From: Vibrio tubiashii ATCC 19109
Lineage (GTDB): Bacteria; Pseudomonadota; Gammaproteobacteria; Enterobacterales; Vibrionaceae
DNA length: 64,000 nucleotides
Direction: 5' to 3'
Assembly: GCF_000772105.1 (NCBI RefSeq)
Contig: NZ_CP009354.1
Span: 1,798,001 to 1,862,000 of the forward strand
The notes beneath the pieces were generated by a model. The model searched no databases. It was not told the origin of the DNA and was given only the letters and a program-made list of their open reading frames with translations. Position numbers and translations under genes: made by a program. This document shows positions 41,630 through 49,202 of this stretch, in pieces (position 1 is the stretch's first letter; each line of letters starts with the position of its first letter).

Positions 41630-42397
41630 ATGAAAAACGCCCCTTTTACCTTATCAGCCTTGTCATCGATTTTAAGCCTGCTGCTGTTACCCTCTCTTTC
41701 TTTTGCACAAGACGAGGAAAGCTCTGACGTTGAAGAGTCGCCTTTCACCGCGCAAACCAAACTTGGCTTTATCTATACAGAAAACACCAGCTCTTCTCTT
41801 TCTGTAAATTCAGCTTTGTACCTCAATTATCAACAAGAGTCTTGGCTACATAAGGCGTCATTTGAAAGCTACTATACTGACGCCGACAATGCCGATGATG
41901 GGGCAAATCGCTATACGGTCAATGCGGGATCAACCTATGACTTTGCAGAGAAAACCTTCGTACGCGGTGCTGGCCGATTTGAAAATGACTTGTATGGTAC
42001 TTACCGTAAGCAGTGGATATTAATGACCGGTATTGGTGTCTATTTGGTTAACAATGACATCGTAAAAACCTCCATCTCTCTTGGTCCGGGTTATCGAATC
42101 ACGCAAAGACAGCCGTTCGATTCTGAATACCCAGACCAAATGAATTATGAAGTGATTGCTTCTTCTACCCTCGATAGCTCTATTGTTTTCTCGGAGAGGC
42201 TTTCAATGGGCGCGACCTTTGACGTGGCACACGGTGAAGAAAACACCCATTACAACACTAAGGCATACATCAAGAATACCTTAATGGCAAACCTGTCTTT
42301 AGTATTCGACGTTGAGTACATCTACAACACAACCGTTGCAGAAGACCAATCACCGGATGAAATCTACAGTACGATGAGCTTGAGCTATGATTTTTAA
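41630..42397 (+). CDS. DUF481 (YdiY-like) outer membrane beta-barrel protein
   Basis: 255 residues with a signal peptide (PFTLSALSSILSLLLLPSLSFA). The mature part starts with an acidic linker and then alternating strands such as TQTKLGFIYTENTSSSLSVN and ASFESYYTDADNADDGANRY. The terminal strand ends in phenylalanine (EIYSTMSLSYDF), the outer membrane assembly signal. The pattern fits DUF481 salt-induced barrel proteins. It stands alone after the two-component terminator. Confidence 0.8.
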   Translation: MKNAPFTLSALSSILSLLLLPSLSFAQDEESSDVEESPFTAQTKLGFIYTENTSSSLSVNSALYLNYQQESWLHKASFESYYTDADNADDGANRYTVNAGSTYDFAEKTFVRGAGRFENDLYGTYRKQWILMTGIGVYLVNNDIVKTSISLGPGYRITQRQPFDSEYPDQMNYEVIASSTLDSSIVFSERLSMGATFDVAHGEENTHYNTKAYIKNTLMANLSLVFDVEYIYNTTVAEDQSPDEIYSTMSLSYDF

Positions 42398-42414: not shown

Positions 42415-42441
42415 TACAAAAACAGCGCCACTAGGGCGCTG
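42415..42441. terminator. Terminator between the DUF481 gene and the regulator-partner gene
   Basis: CAGCGCC (42423-42429) pairs with GGCGCTG (42435-42441). The minus-strand exit has five T residues, so it mainly ends the long minus-strand cluster. Confidence 0.65.
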
Positions 42442-42458
42442 CTCTCTCTTAACTATGT

Positions 42459-42911
42459 TTATGACTCCAAATGTAAAGCCACTTTCTTGCCAACTAATAT
42501 TGAGCCTTTATCACCAATATCGATAAGGTTCATTAGGCCATCAAACGAACCCGGTCTAACAAACAGTTGTTCAATCACCCCACCTTTAGCCCCTTCTAGG
42601 TCAAGTGGTGTGTGCGTATCATGCATGAACAATATTCCGTCCGAATCCATGCTGTATTGCCCTTTACCTGAAAAACCTACTTGGCTTTGCGGTAACATCG
42701 CAAACACGCCATAAGTATTATTTTCGTTTAAAGTCAGTTCAAGCCGCATTGGTAAAGAGGTTGAAAAGACAGTAGATGGTTCTTCAATATGGATGTGCGC
42801 TACGGTACTACTCGTAAAGTGCCTGTTTGGCTGATCACCAGTATTAAAGGCAATACCGACTCCAACGCCTAACCCCAATATCGCTGCGCCAAGGATAATT
42901 TCTTTATTCAC
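42459..42911 (-). CDS. Small membrane-anchored periplasmic partner of ToxR/VtrA-like regulator (copy 1)
   Basis: 150 residues from a GTG that overlaps the end of the upstream regulator gene by eight bases (GTGAATAA). One N-terminal helix (EIILGAAILGLGVGVGIAF) is followed by a periplasmic domain rich in beta strands, such as RLELTLNENNTYGVFAML and FSGKGQYSMDSDGILFM. Size, topology and coupling match ToxS/TcpH/VtrC-type partners, which bind the periplasmic end of a membrane-bound regulator. I do not see clear sequence identity to VtrC, so the assignment is by architecture and its paralog at 48047-48496. Confidence 0.65.
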   Translation of the reverse strand: MNKEIILGAAILGLGVGVGIAFNTGDQPNRHFTSSTVAHIHIEEPSTVFSTSLPMRLELTLNENNTYGVFAMLPQSQVGFSGKGQYSMDSDGILFMHDTHTPLDLEGAKGGVIEQLFVRPGSFDGLMNLIDIGDKGSILVGKKVALHLES

Positions 42912-43596
42912 AATTCACTACCCCACTTTGGTTGCTGAAACTGACGGAACGACCTTGCTCATCAAGCATTAAGCTAAGCTCATCAAACTGATACACCGTT
43001 GGATTCTGGTAATAGATTCTTTCGCCATTGGTTGTTGGCTCATACCAACACTGGTTATAAGTTTTAGCAACATACTGGCTAGAGATCAGTAGCTCTTTAG
43101 CTAGCATCGTCCCAAAGAAGCCAATCACAATCGCAGCAGCAAACACCGAGGCGGCTTTATAGCTGATTGACGAACCCACTTTTGGTGGGGAAAGCTTGCG
43201 TTGCCTATCAGTCTGCGGTGTTTTCTTCTGTTCGGTTGCCAATGGTTCATTCTGAGAAACTTTAACTTCAGAGAGGCATGTTATCTTTTTAACCGTACCG
43301 ATAAATTCATAGCCCACGCCACGCTCTGTGCGGATGATTTCACCAGAGCGATCTTCTAAGCCGCGACGACAACTGGATATGGAGTGCAGCAAACTGCTGC
43401 TCTCCACGACAATGCCACGTTTATGCCATACTTCTTCCATAAGCTCATGTTTACTTAATACTTTTCCTTTATGAGAGAACATGTAGGTCAACAATGAAAT
43501 CTCATTGATACCAATTGGGTGACGGATCTGGCTCTTAAGGCTTTGAATATAGCCGCCAGTGTCGTCAAGTATGTGAGTTCCGTTGATTAGCAGCAT
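42904..43596 (-). CDS. Membrane-bound ToxR/VtrA-like winged-helix regulator (copy 1)
   Basis: 230 residues. Residues 1-100 form an OmpR/PhoB-type winged helix without a receiver domain (NEISLLTYMFSHKGKVLSKH, VVESSSLLHSISSCRRGLED, RTERGVGYEFIG). A basic/proline linker leads to one helix near 147-167 and a 63-residue periplasmic tail with two cysteines (C183, C229) that could form a disulphide as in ToxR. It lies five bases after the RND permease gene on the same strand. About 54 of the first 100 positions are identical to copy 2 at 48489. DNA targets and signal are unknown; bile or other detergent-like ligands are a reasonable guess from VtrA. Confidence 0.8.
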   Translation of the reverse strand: MLLINGTHILDDTGGYIQSLKSQIRHPIGINEISLLTYMFSHKGKVLSKHELMEEVWHKRGIVVESSSLLHSISSCRRGLEDRSGEIIRTERGVGYEFIGTVKKITCLSEVKVSQNEPLATEQKKTPQTDRQRKLSPPKVGSSISYKAASVFAAAIVIGFFGTMLAKELLISSQYVAKTYNQCWYEPTTNGERIYYQNPTVYQFDELSLMLDEQGRSVSFSNQSGVVNCE

Positions 43597-43601
43597 CGTC
43601 T

Positions 43602-46600
43602 TTACCCCTCTGTAGCTAGCTCAAAGCATTTCGATTTTTCAGTCACTTTAGCGAACGCAACATACGCCATAGGCACAATGAATAACGAGAAGAAAGTACC
43701 CACCGTTAAGCCACCAACCAAGACTAAGCCAATGTTGGTACGTCCTAATGAACCCGGGCCATCCGCCAATGCAAGTGGCAATGAACCAATAATCATCGTT
43801 AGTGAAGTCATTAGAATTGGACGTAAGCGAGATTTCGCACTCATAAGAGCCGATGTCATCGCACTGTAGCCCTCTTTACGCTTAATGTTGGCAAACTCGA
43901 CAATCAAAATACCGTGCTTAGTGACTAGACCTACCAAGGTCAACAATCCAATCTTTGAATACAGGTTTAAGCTATGACCAAACACACTTAATGTCAGTAC
44001 TGCACCAACCAAACATAGCGGTACGGTAATTAAGATGATTAGCGGATCGACAAAGCTTTCAAACTGCGCAGCCAGAATCAAGAAGATGAACACCAGTGCC
44101 AAGCCAAATAGGATCTGCATTCCTGCTTCAGATTCATTGAGCTCTTTAACCACACCGTTGTATTCGTAGTTTTGGCCCACTTTCAGCAGTTTTGGTAACT
44201 CGGCATCTATGTAAGCCTGAATATCACTTGCACTGAAACCTGGCATTAGATCAGCTGTAATTTCTGCTGCATCCTTACCACCATAAGTCTTAATGTTTGA
44301 CTCAGCAGTCACTGGCTCAATCGAAACAAACTGAGACAATGGCAACCTTTGGCCCGAGTCAGAGCTTACGTACAGCTTATCTAGAACTTTGAAATCACCT
44401 AATGCCTGACGGTTTACCTGCACCTGAATTGGGTATGTAAAGCCATCTTCTGCCTGCAAATCTGCTGCTTTTACAGAACCAAGGAATGTAGAAATAGCGC
44501 TAGTGACATTGCCGTAGTCTACTCCTGACAGCACAATTGCATTGCGATCAATGGAGAGATCAAAACGTAGCTGATCTCGGTGTGTCGAGTTGTCAACATT
44601 CGAAAGCCCTTCATAGCTTTCTAACAGCTCTACTACTTTTTCTGCGGTATCAGATAACGCCTCTAGGTCACGGTTAACTGTAGTCAGTTCAAGAACGAGA
44701 TTGCTTGCTACATCTAAGTTATCCGCAGAACGTACAGAGAATGAAGTTGAATAGGCTGAAACTGTTTCACCCGCTTTAACCATCATCTCTTGAATAATCT
44801 CATCAGCACTTTGGTCACGTTCTTCCCAAGATTTAAGTAGAACATGGTTAGTTGGTGCAGACTCGATATAAGCTAGGTTTGCTTCAATCGCATCACTGTC
44901 TTTGAACACATTGTTTATCTGTTCCGCATTTTCCAGATCATAGAGACGACCTGCGCCCGCAGGACCATGAGACGAGACTTCAATAAAGCCTGTATCTTCC
45001 GTCGGCAAAAGAACCTTTGGCATAAACCATACTGCAACACCCGATAAAACAATTAGAGCAGCCGTTCCACCCAGCACCATACGCGGACGTTTGAACCAAG
45101 CATTGAGATACAGCATGTACTTTTCAGTCATCGCATCTAACTTGGTTTCAACCCACTGGAACCACTTTGGTGACGTTGTCACTGATTTAAGCATGTACGC
45201 GCTCATCATCGGAGATAGAGTCAGCGCAACAAAGCCTGAGATAATCACAGATGCAGCAAGCGTATAAGCAAACTGCCTGAACAGGTCTGCAGTTAAGCCA
45301 GACATTAAACCAATTGGAAGATATACAACCGCGAGTGTTAACGTCATTGCGATAACTGGGAATACGATCTCTTTACAGCTCTTCAGCGCTGCTTGAAACG
45401 GGGATAATCCCTCTTCAATGTGACGGTAACAGTTTTCTACAACGACTATCGCATCGTCGACAACTAACCCGATCGCAAGGATGATCGCGAGAATGGTTAA
45501 TACATTAATGCTGAAACCAAGCATTGCCATGACTGCAAACACACCAATCACACATACAGGAATGGTAATCAGGGGAATCGCCGCCACACGCAGCGAGCCA
45601 AGAAAGAGCACAACAATTGCGGAAACCAATACAATGGCCTCAACTAAAGTCATAAAACCTTGATCAATCGCTTCTTCGATAAAGTCGGCCTGATTGTAGA
45701 CCATCTTCATCTCGATACCTTCCGGTATCTGCATCGTTTCCATCGCCGCTTTAACGCGGTTCGCTACTGTCACTGGGTTTTCAGTCTTAAGCGGTAATAC
45801 TTGCAGAGACATCGCCATATCGCCATCGACATTAAGCATACTTGGCTCTAGGCTTTCTTCACCCATTTGGATATCAGCAATGTCGCTAACACGAATGATT
45901 TTGCCATTATCAACGCGCAGTACAAGGTCGCGAACATCTTCAATGGTAGTGACTTGGTTGACTGGGTTAATGGAGAAGTCACGCACTTCGCCTTTAATCG
46001 TACCAGCAGTAAAAGTTGCGTTATAGGTGCTTAGTGTTCCAACCACATCGGATGCACTGACATTCAGTGCCGCCATGCGCTCAGGCTGCAACCACACTCG
46101 AATTGCGCGGCTCGAACCACCATAAGGCCCCCAAACTCCGCCAACGCCTAGAACATTTTTGAACTGTGGCGAGATTTGCTGATTGATGAAGTCAAACATC
46201 TCTTGTTTGTCCATCGAGCCATTGTTAACAAACGTAATGATGTTACTTGGCATTGAAGTATCAGATGAGTCATCGGTAACCGTTGGTTTGTCTGTCATAG
46301 CAGGCGGAAAATCAGAGATTCCATCTACCTTGCTACGCAGGTTGTTCATCAAACTCGCGTATTCAACGTCACTAATGCCGTCTTCGAATTGAATCTTTAA
46401 TGAACAACTCCCCTCCTGACAGTCGGTTGTCATCGTTTTGATTTTGTCTAACCCCGTAACGGCAGTAATGAGTTCTTCCGCTACGTTTTGCGACATGAAC
46501 TCAGCGCTCGCTCCTGTGATTGAAGCACTCACCGTGGCAGAGGCCGTTTGACGCTCAGGAAAGTACTGAATAGCCAGTTTCTGGTAAGAGACGATACCAA

Positions 46601-46670
46601 GTAACACAATCGCGATACTTAGCACCGAAGCAAGTACCGGGTGCTTGATACATATTTCAGGCAGCTTCAT
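43602..46670 (-). CDS. RND-family multidrug efflux permease
   Basis: 1022 residues with the HAE1-type layout: helix 1 (ICIKHPVLASVLSIAIVLLG), porter loop, helices 2-6, second porter loop and helices 8-12. The proton-relay aspartate pair is in ILAIGLVVDDAIVVVENCYRH near residue 405, and the later helix region has LTLVGLVTKHGILIVEF. An unusual cysteine pair lies in MTTDCQEGSCSLKIQF, where most paralogs have no cysteine. It overlaps the adaptor gene by 14 bases. No outer membrane factor gene is nearby, so it probably uses TolC encoded elsewhere. Confidence 0.94.
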   Translation of the reverse strand: MKLPEICIKHPVLASVLSIAIVLLGIVSYQKLAIQYFPERQTASATVSASITGASAEFMSQNVAEELITAVTGLDKIKTMTTDCQEGSCSLKIQFEDGISDVEYASLMNNLRSKVDGISDFPPAMTDKPTVTDDSSDTSMPSNIITFVNNGSMDKQEMFDFINQQISPQFKNVLGVGGVWGPYGGSSRAIRVWLQPERMAALNVSASDVVGTLSTYNATFTAGTIKGEVRDFSINPVNQVTTIEDVRDLVLRVDNGKIIRVSDIADIQMGEESLEPSMLNVDGDMAMSLQVLPLKTENPVTVANRVKAAMETMQIPEGIEMKMVYNQADFIEEAIDQGFMTLVEAIVLVSAIVVLFLGSLRVAAIPLITIPVCVIGVFAVMAMLGFSINVLTILAIILAIGLVVDDAIVVVENCYRHIEEGLSPFQAALKSCKEIVFPVIAMTLTLAVVYLPIGLMSGLTADLFRQFAYTLAASVIISGFVALTLSPMMSAYMLKSVTTSPKWFQWVETKLDAMTEKYMLYLNAWFKRPRMVLGGTAALIVLSGVAVWFMPKVLLPTEDTGFIEVSSHGPAGAGRLYDLENAEQINNVFKDSDAIEANLAYIESAPTNHVLLKSWEERDQSADEIIQEMMVKAGETVSAYSTSFSVRSADNLDVASNLVLELTTVNRDLEALSDTAEKVVELLESYEGLSNVDNSTHRDQLRFDLSIDRNAIVLSGVDYGNVTSAISTFLGSVKAADLQAEDGFTYPIQVQVNRQALGDFKVLDKLYVSSDSGQRLPLSQFVSIEPVTAESNIKTYGGKDAAEITADLMPGFSASDIQAYIDAELPKLLKVGQNYEYNGVVKELNESEAGMQILFGLALVFIFLILAAQFESFVDPLIILITVPLCLVGAVLTLSVFGHSLNLYSKIGLLTLVGLVTKHGILIVEFANIKRKEGYSAMTSALMSAKSRLRPILMTSLTMIIGSLPLALADGPGSLGRTNIGLVLVGGLTVGTFFSLFIVPMAYVAFAKVTEKSKCFELATEG

Positions 46671-47847
46671 TCGTTACCTCCGTCGACTTGTCCGCTTTAG
46701 GCTCGGCGATTTTGCTTGCTTCTTTGTTAGGCGTTTCAGCAACTGGCTTTACCGGCTGTTCTTTCTTCTCAGGCTGAGCCGGTAGGGTTCTCGCTGGCAA
46801 AGTTACGGGAGACTTGGTTTGCTGAATAGCCACTTGAACATCTTGATGTAGGTTTTGACGACCAGTGACAACAACACGCTCTCCAGCATTTAATCCAGAC
46901 ACGATCACAACGTAGCCGTCATTGGTGTTTTGCCCTAACTCAACTGAACGCTTGGTTGCTTTGTTGTTTTCGATTACCCAAACAAATCGCTGATCACCTG
47001 ACGTATCCACTGCAGTTTGAGAGACCACGACATCATCTGACGTGTCTCCGACACTTTGCGAAACCTTAGCGAACATTCCTGGTACCAGTTTGTTATCACT
47101 GTTATCTAAGTGCGCATGGACCTCGACTCGACCTGAGTTCTCGTCAACTAATGGAGCAATATAATCGACTGTACCGGTAAACTCTGTTTCACCATAAGCA
47201 TCCACTTTTACCGACACTTGCTGACCAAGTTGCGCTTTGCCGACTTCTGCCTGAGAAATTGAGTAGTGCACTTCAACTGGATCAAGCTTGATAAGGCTAA
47301 CCAAAGCTGTCGCAGCTTCAACGCGGCTGCCAACTGAATGGGTAAAGTTAGTGAGTTGCCCGTCAAATGGTGCAACAAGTTGGTAATTTTGTAGGTCAGT
47401 TTTCTTTTGACTGAAATCCGCTTTTGCCAAACTTGCTTGCTGCTTTAGCTCTTCAACATCTTGAGCTGACATGGAGTCTGGTTGTTTCTTTAATAAAGCT
47501 AATACACGAGCAAGTTTTGATTCAGCGAGCGCCAACGAGCTTTCTGCTTTGTCTAATTCAGCTTTCGCTTGCGAGTCATCAAGTTGAGCAATGAGCTCCC
47601 CTTTCTTAACAACATCGCCGTCATTGAAATTGAGTTGCTTTAATTTTTCACCAGCACTAAATGTTAATGCTGCGGAGTCTGTCGCTTTCAGCTTACCGAC
47701 TTCTTCAATAGTTGAAGCGGTCATTTGCTGTTTCGCGATCTCAACGGTAACAGGGACACTTTCCATAGTCTCTGCAAAAGCAGTTGAACCGATAATAGTG
47801 GTTCCAATACAGAAAATAGACAGGGATAAAGTCTTAGTATTTTTCAT
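46657..47847 (-). CDS. RND periplasmic adaptor (membrane fusion) protein
   Basis: 396 residues with a signal peptide (LSLSIFCIGTTIIGSTAFA). The split lipoyl domain is clear in LNFNDGDVVKKGELIAQLDDSQAK and VAPFDGQLTNFTHSVGSRVEA, with a short coiled-coil hairpin between them and a beta-barrel region LGQQVSVKVDAYGETEFTGTV. The last 45 residues are a proline/lysine-rich tail (PEKKEQPVKPVAETPN) not needed by the family. The adaptor links the permease to an outer membrane channel. The gene begins the pump transcript and overlaps the permease start. Confidence 0.93.
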   Translation of the reverse strand: MKNTKTLSLSIFCIGTTIIGSTAFAETMESVPVTVEIAKQQMTASTIEEVGKLKATDSAALTFSAGEKLKQLNFNDGDVVKKGELIAQLDDSQAKAELDKAESSLALAESKLARVLALLKKQPDSMSAQDVEELKQQASLAKADFSQKKTDLQNYQLVAPFDGQLTNFTHSVGSRVEAATALVSLIKLDPVEVHYSISQAEVGKAQLGQQVSVKVDAYGETEFTGTVDYIAPLVDENSGRVEVHAHLDNSDNKLVPGMFAKVSQSVGDTSDDVVVSQTAVDTSGDQRFVWVIENNKATKRSVELGQNTNDGYVVIVSGLNAGERVVVTGRQNLHQDVQVAIQQTKSPVTLPARTLPAQPEKKEQPVKPVAETPNKEASKIAEPKADKSTEVTNEAA

Positions 47848-47996
47848 AGTGCGACTCTGATTGATGGAAGTTGTCGCTTGTTATACCTAAGATTTTTCTG
47901 ACAAAGTTATCGTTTTGTCAGCCAGAGAATGATTAATCCTTAACGAACCTTAATAAATATCAAGTTATTGTTTTTAAAGGATTTAAATACAAAAAA

Positions 47997-48024
47997 GCCG
48001 CAGTAACTTGCAAAGTACTACGGC
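47997..48024 (-). terminator. Imperfect terminator after the second partner gene
   Basis: GCCGCAGTA (47997-48005) pairs with TACTACGGC (48016-48024) with one mismatch. On the minus strand the stem is followed by six T residues. This separates the upstream regulator pair from the pump genes. Confidence 0.65.
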
Positions 48025-48046
48025 GATTTAAAAGTGATTAATGACG

Positions 48047-48496
48047 TTATTCAGCGCGCTTTGAAAACAAGTATGAGTACCTAGGAGCCACCAAAATCAT
48101 CTGTTCCTGCGAATAGGGGATCATTTTAAGCTCTTCTAACGAATGCATACCACGCTGTGAAAACATCGTTTCCAACAGAGAGACGTTTTGCGAAGAAGGC
48201 AGGACTTGTTCAGATGTGGTTGGCATTAGTGAAAGCCCATAGCGGGTAAAGTGGTATTCTCCCGCCGAGTTAAAGCCGACATCTCCCTCCGTCAAAAAGA
48301 ACATCTCGTACTGACCAGAACGTTTGAGATTGATTGCCGACTTCATCTTAATGATGTGGGTATTGTCATCCGATTTAACCAGTAGACTGGTATCACTTTG
48401 CAACGCTTGAGCGATAGTGGGCGAGTTTACTACGCCAGCCAACACGCCAATAATTAACCCCGAAGCAATACTACCCGCTAGAATTTTCTTATTCAC
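48047..48496 (-). CDS. Small membrane-anchored periplasmic partner of ToxR/VtrA-like regulator (copy 2)
   Basis: 149 residues from a GTG that overlaps the regulator gene by eight bases (GTGAATAA), exactly as in copy 1. One N-terminal helix (ILAGSIASGLIIGVLAGVV) leads to a periplasmic domain with VGFNSAGEYHFTRYGLSLM, comparable to VGFSGKGQYSMDSDGILFM of copy 1. Elsewhere the two partners have diverged strongly, which suggests different ligands. It has no cysteine. The role is inferred from ToxS/VtrC-type proteins. Confidence 0.65.
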   Translation of the reverse strand: MNKKILAGSIASGLIIGVLAGVVNSPTIAQALQSDTSLLVKSDDNTHIIKMKSAINLKRSGQYEMFFLTEGDVGFNSAGEYHFTRYGLSLMPTTSEQVLPSSQNVSLLETMFSQRGMHSLEELKMIPYSQEQMILVAPRYSYLFSKRAE

Positions 48497-49139
48497 AATC
48501 CACCTCCACTTCAGAAGGAATAAAGCTGATTGAATTCCCCTCTTGATCGACCAAGATAGTTTGGTTTTCAGAAGTAAAAGCGCGAACGTTGTTCATCACT
48601 AGTGACTTGTCACTACCAGATTGAGGGATAACGCAGCCAACATATCGGCTCTCTTGATAATCAGCCTCTACCCATGGTGTGCTCAACCAACTATAAGCCG
48701 TAAAACCGACTGCTGCACTAAGTGTAAAGGCAATGAGGTAAGCCGTATTATTGCGTTTAAGCTGCTTTGGTTCGCTGGGGCTCGACTCTCGAGTAATAAT
48801 CGGAGAATCGATTTCTTGCGGTTGGTAGCTTTCTACATGGCCATTAAACTGATAGCCGACACCGCGGACTGTGGTAATGATTTCACCACCGCGGTCTTCT
48901 AGTGCTTTACGACAAGTCGATACCGCATGGAGTAAGCTGCTTTCTTCTACCACCACGCCTTTCTTGTACCAGACTTCATCGAGAAGCTGAGCCTTTGAGA
49001 GTGGCTTATGAGGGTGCTCAATCATAAACTGCAACAGAGCAACTTCGTTGCTGCCAAGCGCAACTTTGATACCACTGTGTCGCTCTTCTAACGTCCCTGT
49101 TAAAGCGTTAAGAATGTATTTATTGTTTATCAACAACAT
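48489..49139 (-). CDS. Membrane-bound ToxR/VtrA-like winged-helix regulator (copy 2)
   Basis: 216 residues. The N-terminal winged helix (NEVALLQFMIEHPHKPLSKA, VVEESSLLHAVSTCRKALED, TTVRGVGYQFNG) is followed by one helix near 133-152 and a periplasmic tail of about 60 residues with C169 and C215, positions that correspond to the two cysteines of copy 1; both tails end in V-x-C-E. No receiver or phospho-acceptor domain is present. It is divergent in position from nothing nearby and lies upstream of the pump genes in the same direction, so it could regulate the pump. Confidence 0.8.
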   Translation of the reverse strand: MLLINNKYILNALTGTLEERHSGIKVALGSNEVALLQFMIEHPHKPLSKAQLLDEVWYKKGVVVEESSLLHAVSTCRKALEDRGGEIITTVRGVGYQFNGHVESYQPQEIDSPIITRESSPSEPKQLKRNNTAYLIAFTLSAAVGFTAYSWLSTPWVEADYQESRYVGCVIPQSGSDKSLVMNNVRAFTSENQTILVDQEGNSISFIPSEVEVDCE

Positions 49140-49202
49140 AGGTAATAATCTGAATTCTTTATATTATTACCTTAACCATATCTTAAAATTCATAAAATGG
49201 AA

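Follow-up and report, generated by a model that had tools for sequence, protein, structure and literature searches.

The 64,000-nucleotide stretch analyzed here (hereafter, the window), taken from contig NZ_CP009354.1 (positions 1,798,001 to 1,862,000) of Vibrio tubiashii ATCC 19109, whose genome comprises 5.54 Mb in 6 contigs, harbors a resistance-nodulation-division (RND) efflux pump flanked by two paralogous pairs, each made up of a ToxR-type regulator and a small partner. On the minus strand, the order is regA-parA-MFP-RND-regB-parB, where MFP stands for the periplasmic adaptor (membrane fusion protein) and RND for the permease (Table 1). This arrangement of six genes on a single strand had been described in an earlier note made from the letters of the DNA, and our analysis located all six accordingly.

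Table 1. Features of the pump locus and their positions in the window.
Feature	Position	Strand	Description
regA	48489..49139	-	ToxR-type winged helix, one membrane helix, 64-residue periplasmic tail, Cys169 and Cys215
parA	48047..48496	-	Small partner, N-terminal membrane helix and predicted 8-strand ToxS/VtrC-like barrel; 8-base overlap with regA
Terminator-like hairpin and T-run 3' of parA	~47990..48024	-	-15.1 kcal/mol; T-run in place across 11 aligned loci
Pump promoter region	47848..47989	-	TATAAC kept in 11/11 aligned loci
Candidate operator in pump promoter, direct repeat	47938..47953	-	
Candidate operator 5' of regA, direct repeat	49170..49186	-	
MFP periplasmic adaptor (RND_mfp)	46657..47847	-	
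RND permease (ACR_tran)	43602..46670	-	14-base overlap with MFP
regB, regA paralogue	42904..43596	-	Start 5 bases past RND stop
parB, parA paralogue	42459..42911	-	8-base overlap with regB
Terminator-like hairpin 3' of parB	~42418..42446	-	Folded stretch -19.9 kcal/mol

The flanking of the pump by two paralogous regulator-partner pairs is real, and the features from which it had been read held up when recomputed. The earlier count of 54 identical residues among the first 100 of RegA and RegB, without gaps, was exact, and the full-length proteins shared 34% identity (BLASTP, E 3e-37). Pfam gave Trans_reg_C alone in both, with no receiver, as had been proposed, and both periplasmic cysteines lie equally far from the C terminus in the two regulators. 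This cysteine pair, one member of which is near the C terminus, was invariant in the 28 regulators aligned (28/28). With regard to the winged helix, that of RegA was nearest to ToxR, both by sequence and by model. Its membrane helix was weak by hydropathy (1.39, the lowest value, with 24 of the 28 regulators above 1.6), and the structure model placed a single membrane helix at residues 129-152. A fold search with full-length RegA was taken up by winged helices, its matches spanning residues 1-102 only. The 8-base overlap between regulator and partner genes (GTGAATAA or a one-letter variant) recurred in 19 of the 20 junctions of ten loci, that of the window among them; the last one, regB/parB of V. 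sinaloensis, carries one extra codon, with the GTG kept at the Cys codon.

As the earlier note had stated, the partners are more diverged than the DNA-binding parts, ParA and ParB sharing 22% identity (E 8e-6 in a single comparison) versus the 54/100 of the regulator N-termini; by profile, they are homologous (hhalign, 98.7%). Neither was named by Pfam or NCBIfam (top Pfam row for ParB, E 0.2), and the partner profile gave nothing meaningful against solved chains by sequence. The comparison with ToxS and VtrC was borne out at the level of predicted structure, where these two proteins made up the five best solved matches of the ParA model, and sequence profiles were weak. From the ParA model, the partner is predicted to be lipocalin-like, ParB being placed by profile homology to ParA. 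In addition, the partner genes lie downstream of the regulator genes, overlap them and encode an N-terminal membrane helix, which is the arrangement of co-component systems. Both pairs thus fit, on the model, the VtrA/VtrC-like co-component superfamily, as a separate subfamily.

By family, MFP-RND is an RND efflux pump (ACR_tran, E 2.4e-235; RND_mfp, E 1.6e-66, both above the family cut-off), and its role in multidrug or detergent export is putative. Pfam found HlyD-type domains in the adaptor and, in the permease, ACR_tran along with two permease families related to it, with scores of narrower permease subfamily models under their cut-offs. A literature comparison with the RND operons of V. 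parahaemolyticus did not assign the pump to any named Vibrio pump.

Judging by layout, regA-parA, followed by a terminator-like hairpin, and MFP-RND-regB-parB are probably separate transcription units, which would place pair A in a unit of its own and pair B at the end of the pump operon. This is based on the parA hairpin, the pump promoter, the MFP/RND overlap, the 5-base gap between RND and regB and the hairpin after parB. The parA hairpin was equalled by 1 of 200 shuffles, and the T-run after it is aligned in the 11 loci, though the stem letters vary; the parB hairpin, which the consensus scan places on the plus strand, was about equally significant. The conserved TATAAC starts 38 bases before the MFP start, and in the window the repeat described below is centred another 60 bases upstream; the consensus promoter scan gave no site there.

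In order to determine where such pairs occur, we analyzed 150 evenly drawn Vibrionaceae genomes together with 29 named loci containing a pump relative. Both sets overlap (L084/G096, L096/G070, L080/G040 and L081/G147), so that their counts are not independent, and since at most 19 candidates per genome were scored in the regulator profile search and at most five in the pump search, distant copies may have been missed. A profile of the 28 regulators matched at E <= 1e-30 in 16 of the 150 genomes, three of which carry pairs A and B; the other 13 (read as L052, L055-L059, L071 and L149-L154) carry a related pair, type C. In all 13, regC-parC is divergent from genes for a VolA-like lipase and a FadL-like porin, and in 10 of them MFP-RND follows fadL (not in G130, G037 and G144). 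In six of the 13 (L052, L056-L059 and L071), volA and fadL were called from frame size and N-terminal letters alone; in L055, the porin matched Toluene_X at 5.7e-105 and the lipase scored 211 bits versus the TIGR03502 cut-off of 383.9. VolA is described as releasing fatty acids from phosphatidylcholine (PMC9496633). In a tree of the DNA-binding domain, A plus B separated from C with values of 96/99 (A alone, 75/69; B, 93/90), C was not one clade and the outside rows stood on long branches. Defects were present in some type C loci, where volA and parC are apparently interrupted (G140), regC is short (G096), the RND frame is split (G100) or the fadL frame is short (G037). In G140, the interruptions are two 306-aa frames (L057:11891-12811 and L057:15004-15924) with identical first 50 residues, a pattern resembling that of insertion elements. 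ParC contains two cysteines close to its C terminus (147 and 152) in all ten rows of the alignment (L052, L055, L071, L078, L080-L082, L084, L087 and L093), which are not present in ParA or ParB.

Among the 150 genomes, matches at E <= 0.001 were obtained for parA in 15 and for parB in four, pump relatives at E <= 1e-300 were found in 31, and close relatives (>=56%) of both parA and parB, together and in the same order, were found in three, the window's own genome included. Regarding the 29 named loci, nine contain the A/B block, which is complete in eight (V. europaeus, V. coralliilyticus, V. ouci, V. neptunius, V. bivalvicida, V. sinaloensis and strains RE88 and RE86), the ninth being that of V. 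maerlii; with a further locus (L054), ten lie outside the window, nine of them complete. The remaining 20 comprise seven type C loci, in one of which regC is short, three where no intact pair accompanies the pump and 10 from Photobacterium, which have the pump and no pair. Where named, matches of the protein search were from Vibrio, one being labelled Photobacterium, and the partner profile run against 274 genomes across the class gave no convincing match beyond the own genome; a 38-position match inside an 877-aa frame was taken as chance. Within these searches, the subfamily was seen in Vibrionaceae only.

Among named relatives, V. europaeus is nearest (RND, 99%), and V. tubiashii is also close (parA, 96%). 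In more distant species, identity to the window fell from the pump towards the sensors: in V. sinaloensis, it was 89% for RND, 73% for MFP, 64% and 60% for the winged helix and tail of RegA, 64% and 41% for those of RegB, 50% for ParA and 43% for ParB, and in V. neptunius, the respective values were 88%, 71%, 72%, 61%, 70%, 39%, 55% and 47%. Sensors no more diverged than the pump were found in V. europaeus and V. bivalvicida (parB, 99% and 98%). Fast-evolving inputs are reported for the co-component superfamily (PMC9214523).

A candidate shared operator in the two window promoters, for which the earlier note had proposed a comparison, was found as a direct repeat of TTRAGG spaced by 10-11 bp; this repeat is seen again before the pump, before regA and between regC and volA in other genomes, though not in all species. 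In the window, TTAAG-N5/6-TTAAGG occurs twice, once per promoter (0.09 expected; two copies in 1 of 100 shuffles), and genome-wide six times versus two in a backward control; of the six, four lie outside the locus, including two within reading frames. As the pattern was derived from the window's own sites, its counts there do not test it independently. In the ten A/B loci, TTRAG-N5/6-TTRAGG was perfect before regA in five, with one mismatch in another. Recurrence in type C loci gives better support: in the regC/volA gap, TTRAGG-N4-TTRAGG was perfect in three of ten and had one mismatch in four, each of these seven being equalled by 0-1 of 100 shuffles, and it had two mismatches in the other three (6-14 of 100), a third half-site being visible by eye in several gaps. 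Genome-wide, this form had three perfect copies versus two in the control.

Comparison with known systems placed the pairs beside, and not within, them. As in ToxR/ToxS of V. cholerae, there is a ToxR-nearest winged helix, one membrane helix, a cysteine pair with one member C-terminal and a predicted ToxS-like barrel; unlike it, there are two copies tied to an RND pump, and the 64-residue tail has no predicted helix. Judged by sequence, the window pairs are not ToxR/ToxS orthologues, since the genome has separate ToxRS-like genes (C1:2466569-2467962) and its own ToxR-like row fell outside the A/B/C group on a long branch (100/99). VtrA of V. parahaemolyticus has no disulfide (PMC9214523), in contrast to the cysteine pair of the window regulators; the VtrA/VtrC cassette controls type III secretion system 2, and its structural match to the window partner has 5-6% identity. 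In TcpP/TcpH of V. cholerae, the phase of the start codon on the Cys codon differs, as in the window the GTG takes the last two bases of the latter; TcpH was not among the fold matches of the ParA model, a list that is no test for TcpH. Pair C, the nearest relative of A and B, is divergent from volA and fadL; the window locus has neither gene, and the genome's own copy lies elsewhere without a pair. We found no paper on this pump-pair locus in the open-licence PubMed Central literature, where a passing mention could have been missed.

Taken together, we consider it probable (roughly 60%) that two paralogous co-component pairs of the ToxRS/VtrAC type control one RND pump in response to amphipathic lipids. 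Gene order, families, predicted partner fold, paralogy and volA-fadL linkage were computed. The partner would be a membrane-anchored, lipocalin-like half receptor which, together with the regulator tail, may form a pocket for an amphipathic molecule, and whether this pocket is occupied would determine how active or how stable the membrane-held winged helix is. The winged helix would act directly at the TTRAGG repeats before the pump and before regA, presumably switching the pump on. Pair A, made from its own unit, could be the resident sensor, and pair B, at the end of the pump operon, would rise with the pump and provide feedback. We propose lysophospholipids, free fatty acids or similar detergents, perhaps bile, as the most likely ligands, the one ground being that both pairs have their closest relatives next to a lipase/fatty-acid porin operon, in divergent orientation to it. 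In V. cholerae, ToxR is activated when RND efflux is lost, which the authors of that study read as sensing of metabolites normally pumped out (PMC5773229); a pump operon carrying a second sensor would build that logic into one locus. The report that alpha-linolenic acid affects TcpPH via membrane phospholipids and not as the free acid (PMC11323476) calls for caution against a simple fatty-acid pocket, and the link of co-component systems to lipid ligands is described as mostly unclear (PMC9214523).

Several results weigh against this reading. The RegA tail was modelled as strands only, with no helix, and the regulator-tail profile did not match the ToxR tail (0.2%). Sequence likewise gave little for ToxS, with 9.6% for the combined partner profile (best of 20 shuffled controls, 0.8%), 0.2-0.6% for single-family profiles and 28.5% for a single ToxS sequence. 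As for the operator, the pattern derived from the window's own two sites was perfect in the pump promoter of six of ten loci, at the same place (-106), and perfect at both pump and regA in three; in the pump promoters of RE88, V. coralliilyticus, V. neptunius and V. sinaloensis, 52-200 of 200 shuffles were as good, and for the remaining sites of pump and regA taken together, 24-200 of 200. The consensus terminator scan did not list the parA hairpin, and promoter and terminator scans gave no excess over shuffles (6 vs. 12.0 and 6 vs. 5.6). Finally, the genome's own volA-fadL (L121:6589-10106, C1) has no adjoining pair and no full repeat, and its membership in the regulon was not supported.

The division of labor between both pairs could differ from this. 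That they oppose each other, one activating and the operon-borne B damping the pump, or that B is a redundant leftover, we regard as rather doubtful. The start of regB directly past the pump agrees with this, as does V. maerlii, a further point against the main reading, in which regB ends after the membrane helix (L073:13102-13590) with its sensor part lost and no parB was found in the 1,600 bases searched, indicating that the B sensor is dispensable there. However, both pairs keep cysteines, overlap and open frames in the ten loci compared, and the divergence of B, albeit fast, is unlike that of a decaying gene.

The earlier note had interpreted the locus as two sensors with different ligands controlling a single detergent/bile pump; the assignment to ToxRS/VtrAC-type pairs stood, and the bile part is weaker. 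Species with A/B live with marine invertebrates, which counts against bile, as does the position of the relatives beside volA-fadL. The nearest solved folds, ToxS and VtrC, belong to systems that bind bile (PMC10624426, PMC9214523), which favors two bile-salt sensors on a bile pump, but among the V. parahaemolyticus RND operons, vmeCD alone answered deoxycholate (PMC3831635), though the window pump could not be matched to any of them; we hold this explanation unlikely. Least probable is that the regulators merely adjoin the pump and act mainly on virulence or envelope genes elsewhere, as could be expected from Kinch et al., who present co-component cassettes as virulence regulators (PMC9214523), given that a pair adjoins the pump or volA-fadL in 16/16 genomes with a match (of 150) and that two of the six full repeats in the genome lie at this locus.

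Returning to control of the pump by lipid-sensing pairs, the locus is richer in ancestry and layout than first read, being a doubled, pump-bound subfamily of a known co-component kind. We tentatively suggest, as a possibility somewhat short of even odds, that this subfamily served lipid handling first: an ancestral pair on a lysophospholipase-FadL-efflux module, which would harvest acyl chains and export detergents, may have been doubled around the pump in one Vibrio clade to give a two-input receptor set, possibly with mixed RegA/RegB and ParA/ParB, for two amphipathic lipid classes and one operator type. Because the nearest relatives of the pairs adjoin lipid-harvesting genes, our data suggest that such sensors may serve everyday lipid and detergent handling beyond virulence. 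The gene neighborhood points to a class of ligands (VolA products, or molecules carried by FadL or by the pump). Pairs A, B and C, as paralogous receptors whose inputs can be predicted, would serve as a test bed, and also as an example from nature of a duplicated sensor whose input evolves fast and whose output is conserved. Inducible expression of RND pumps has generally been attributed to TetR-type repressors or two-component systems; if true, the present scheme would connect a periplasmic sensor directly to an RND pump.

Other features were noted at the locus. A nine-base inverted repeat (window 49141-49171) brackets the stretch immediately 5' of the start codon of regA; V. europaeus has it almost unchanged, and most other species do not keep it. 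A DUF481 protein gene (window 41630-42397) is convergent to parB; it is not at that place in V. ouci, V. sinaloensis, V. maerlii and L054, and relatives (54-57%) adjoin the pump, or lie one gene beyond, in most type C loci. Elsewhere in the genome, contig C3 (251,408 bp; loci L104, L105, L106 and L155-L157) holds 10 of the 33 Trans_reg_C matches, including, in three places, at least five other ToxR-like regulator and small-partner pairs of another subtype, one of them near a gene that is PAAR-like by eye.
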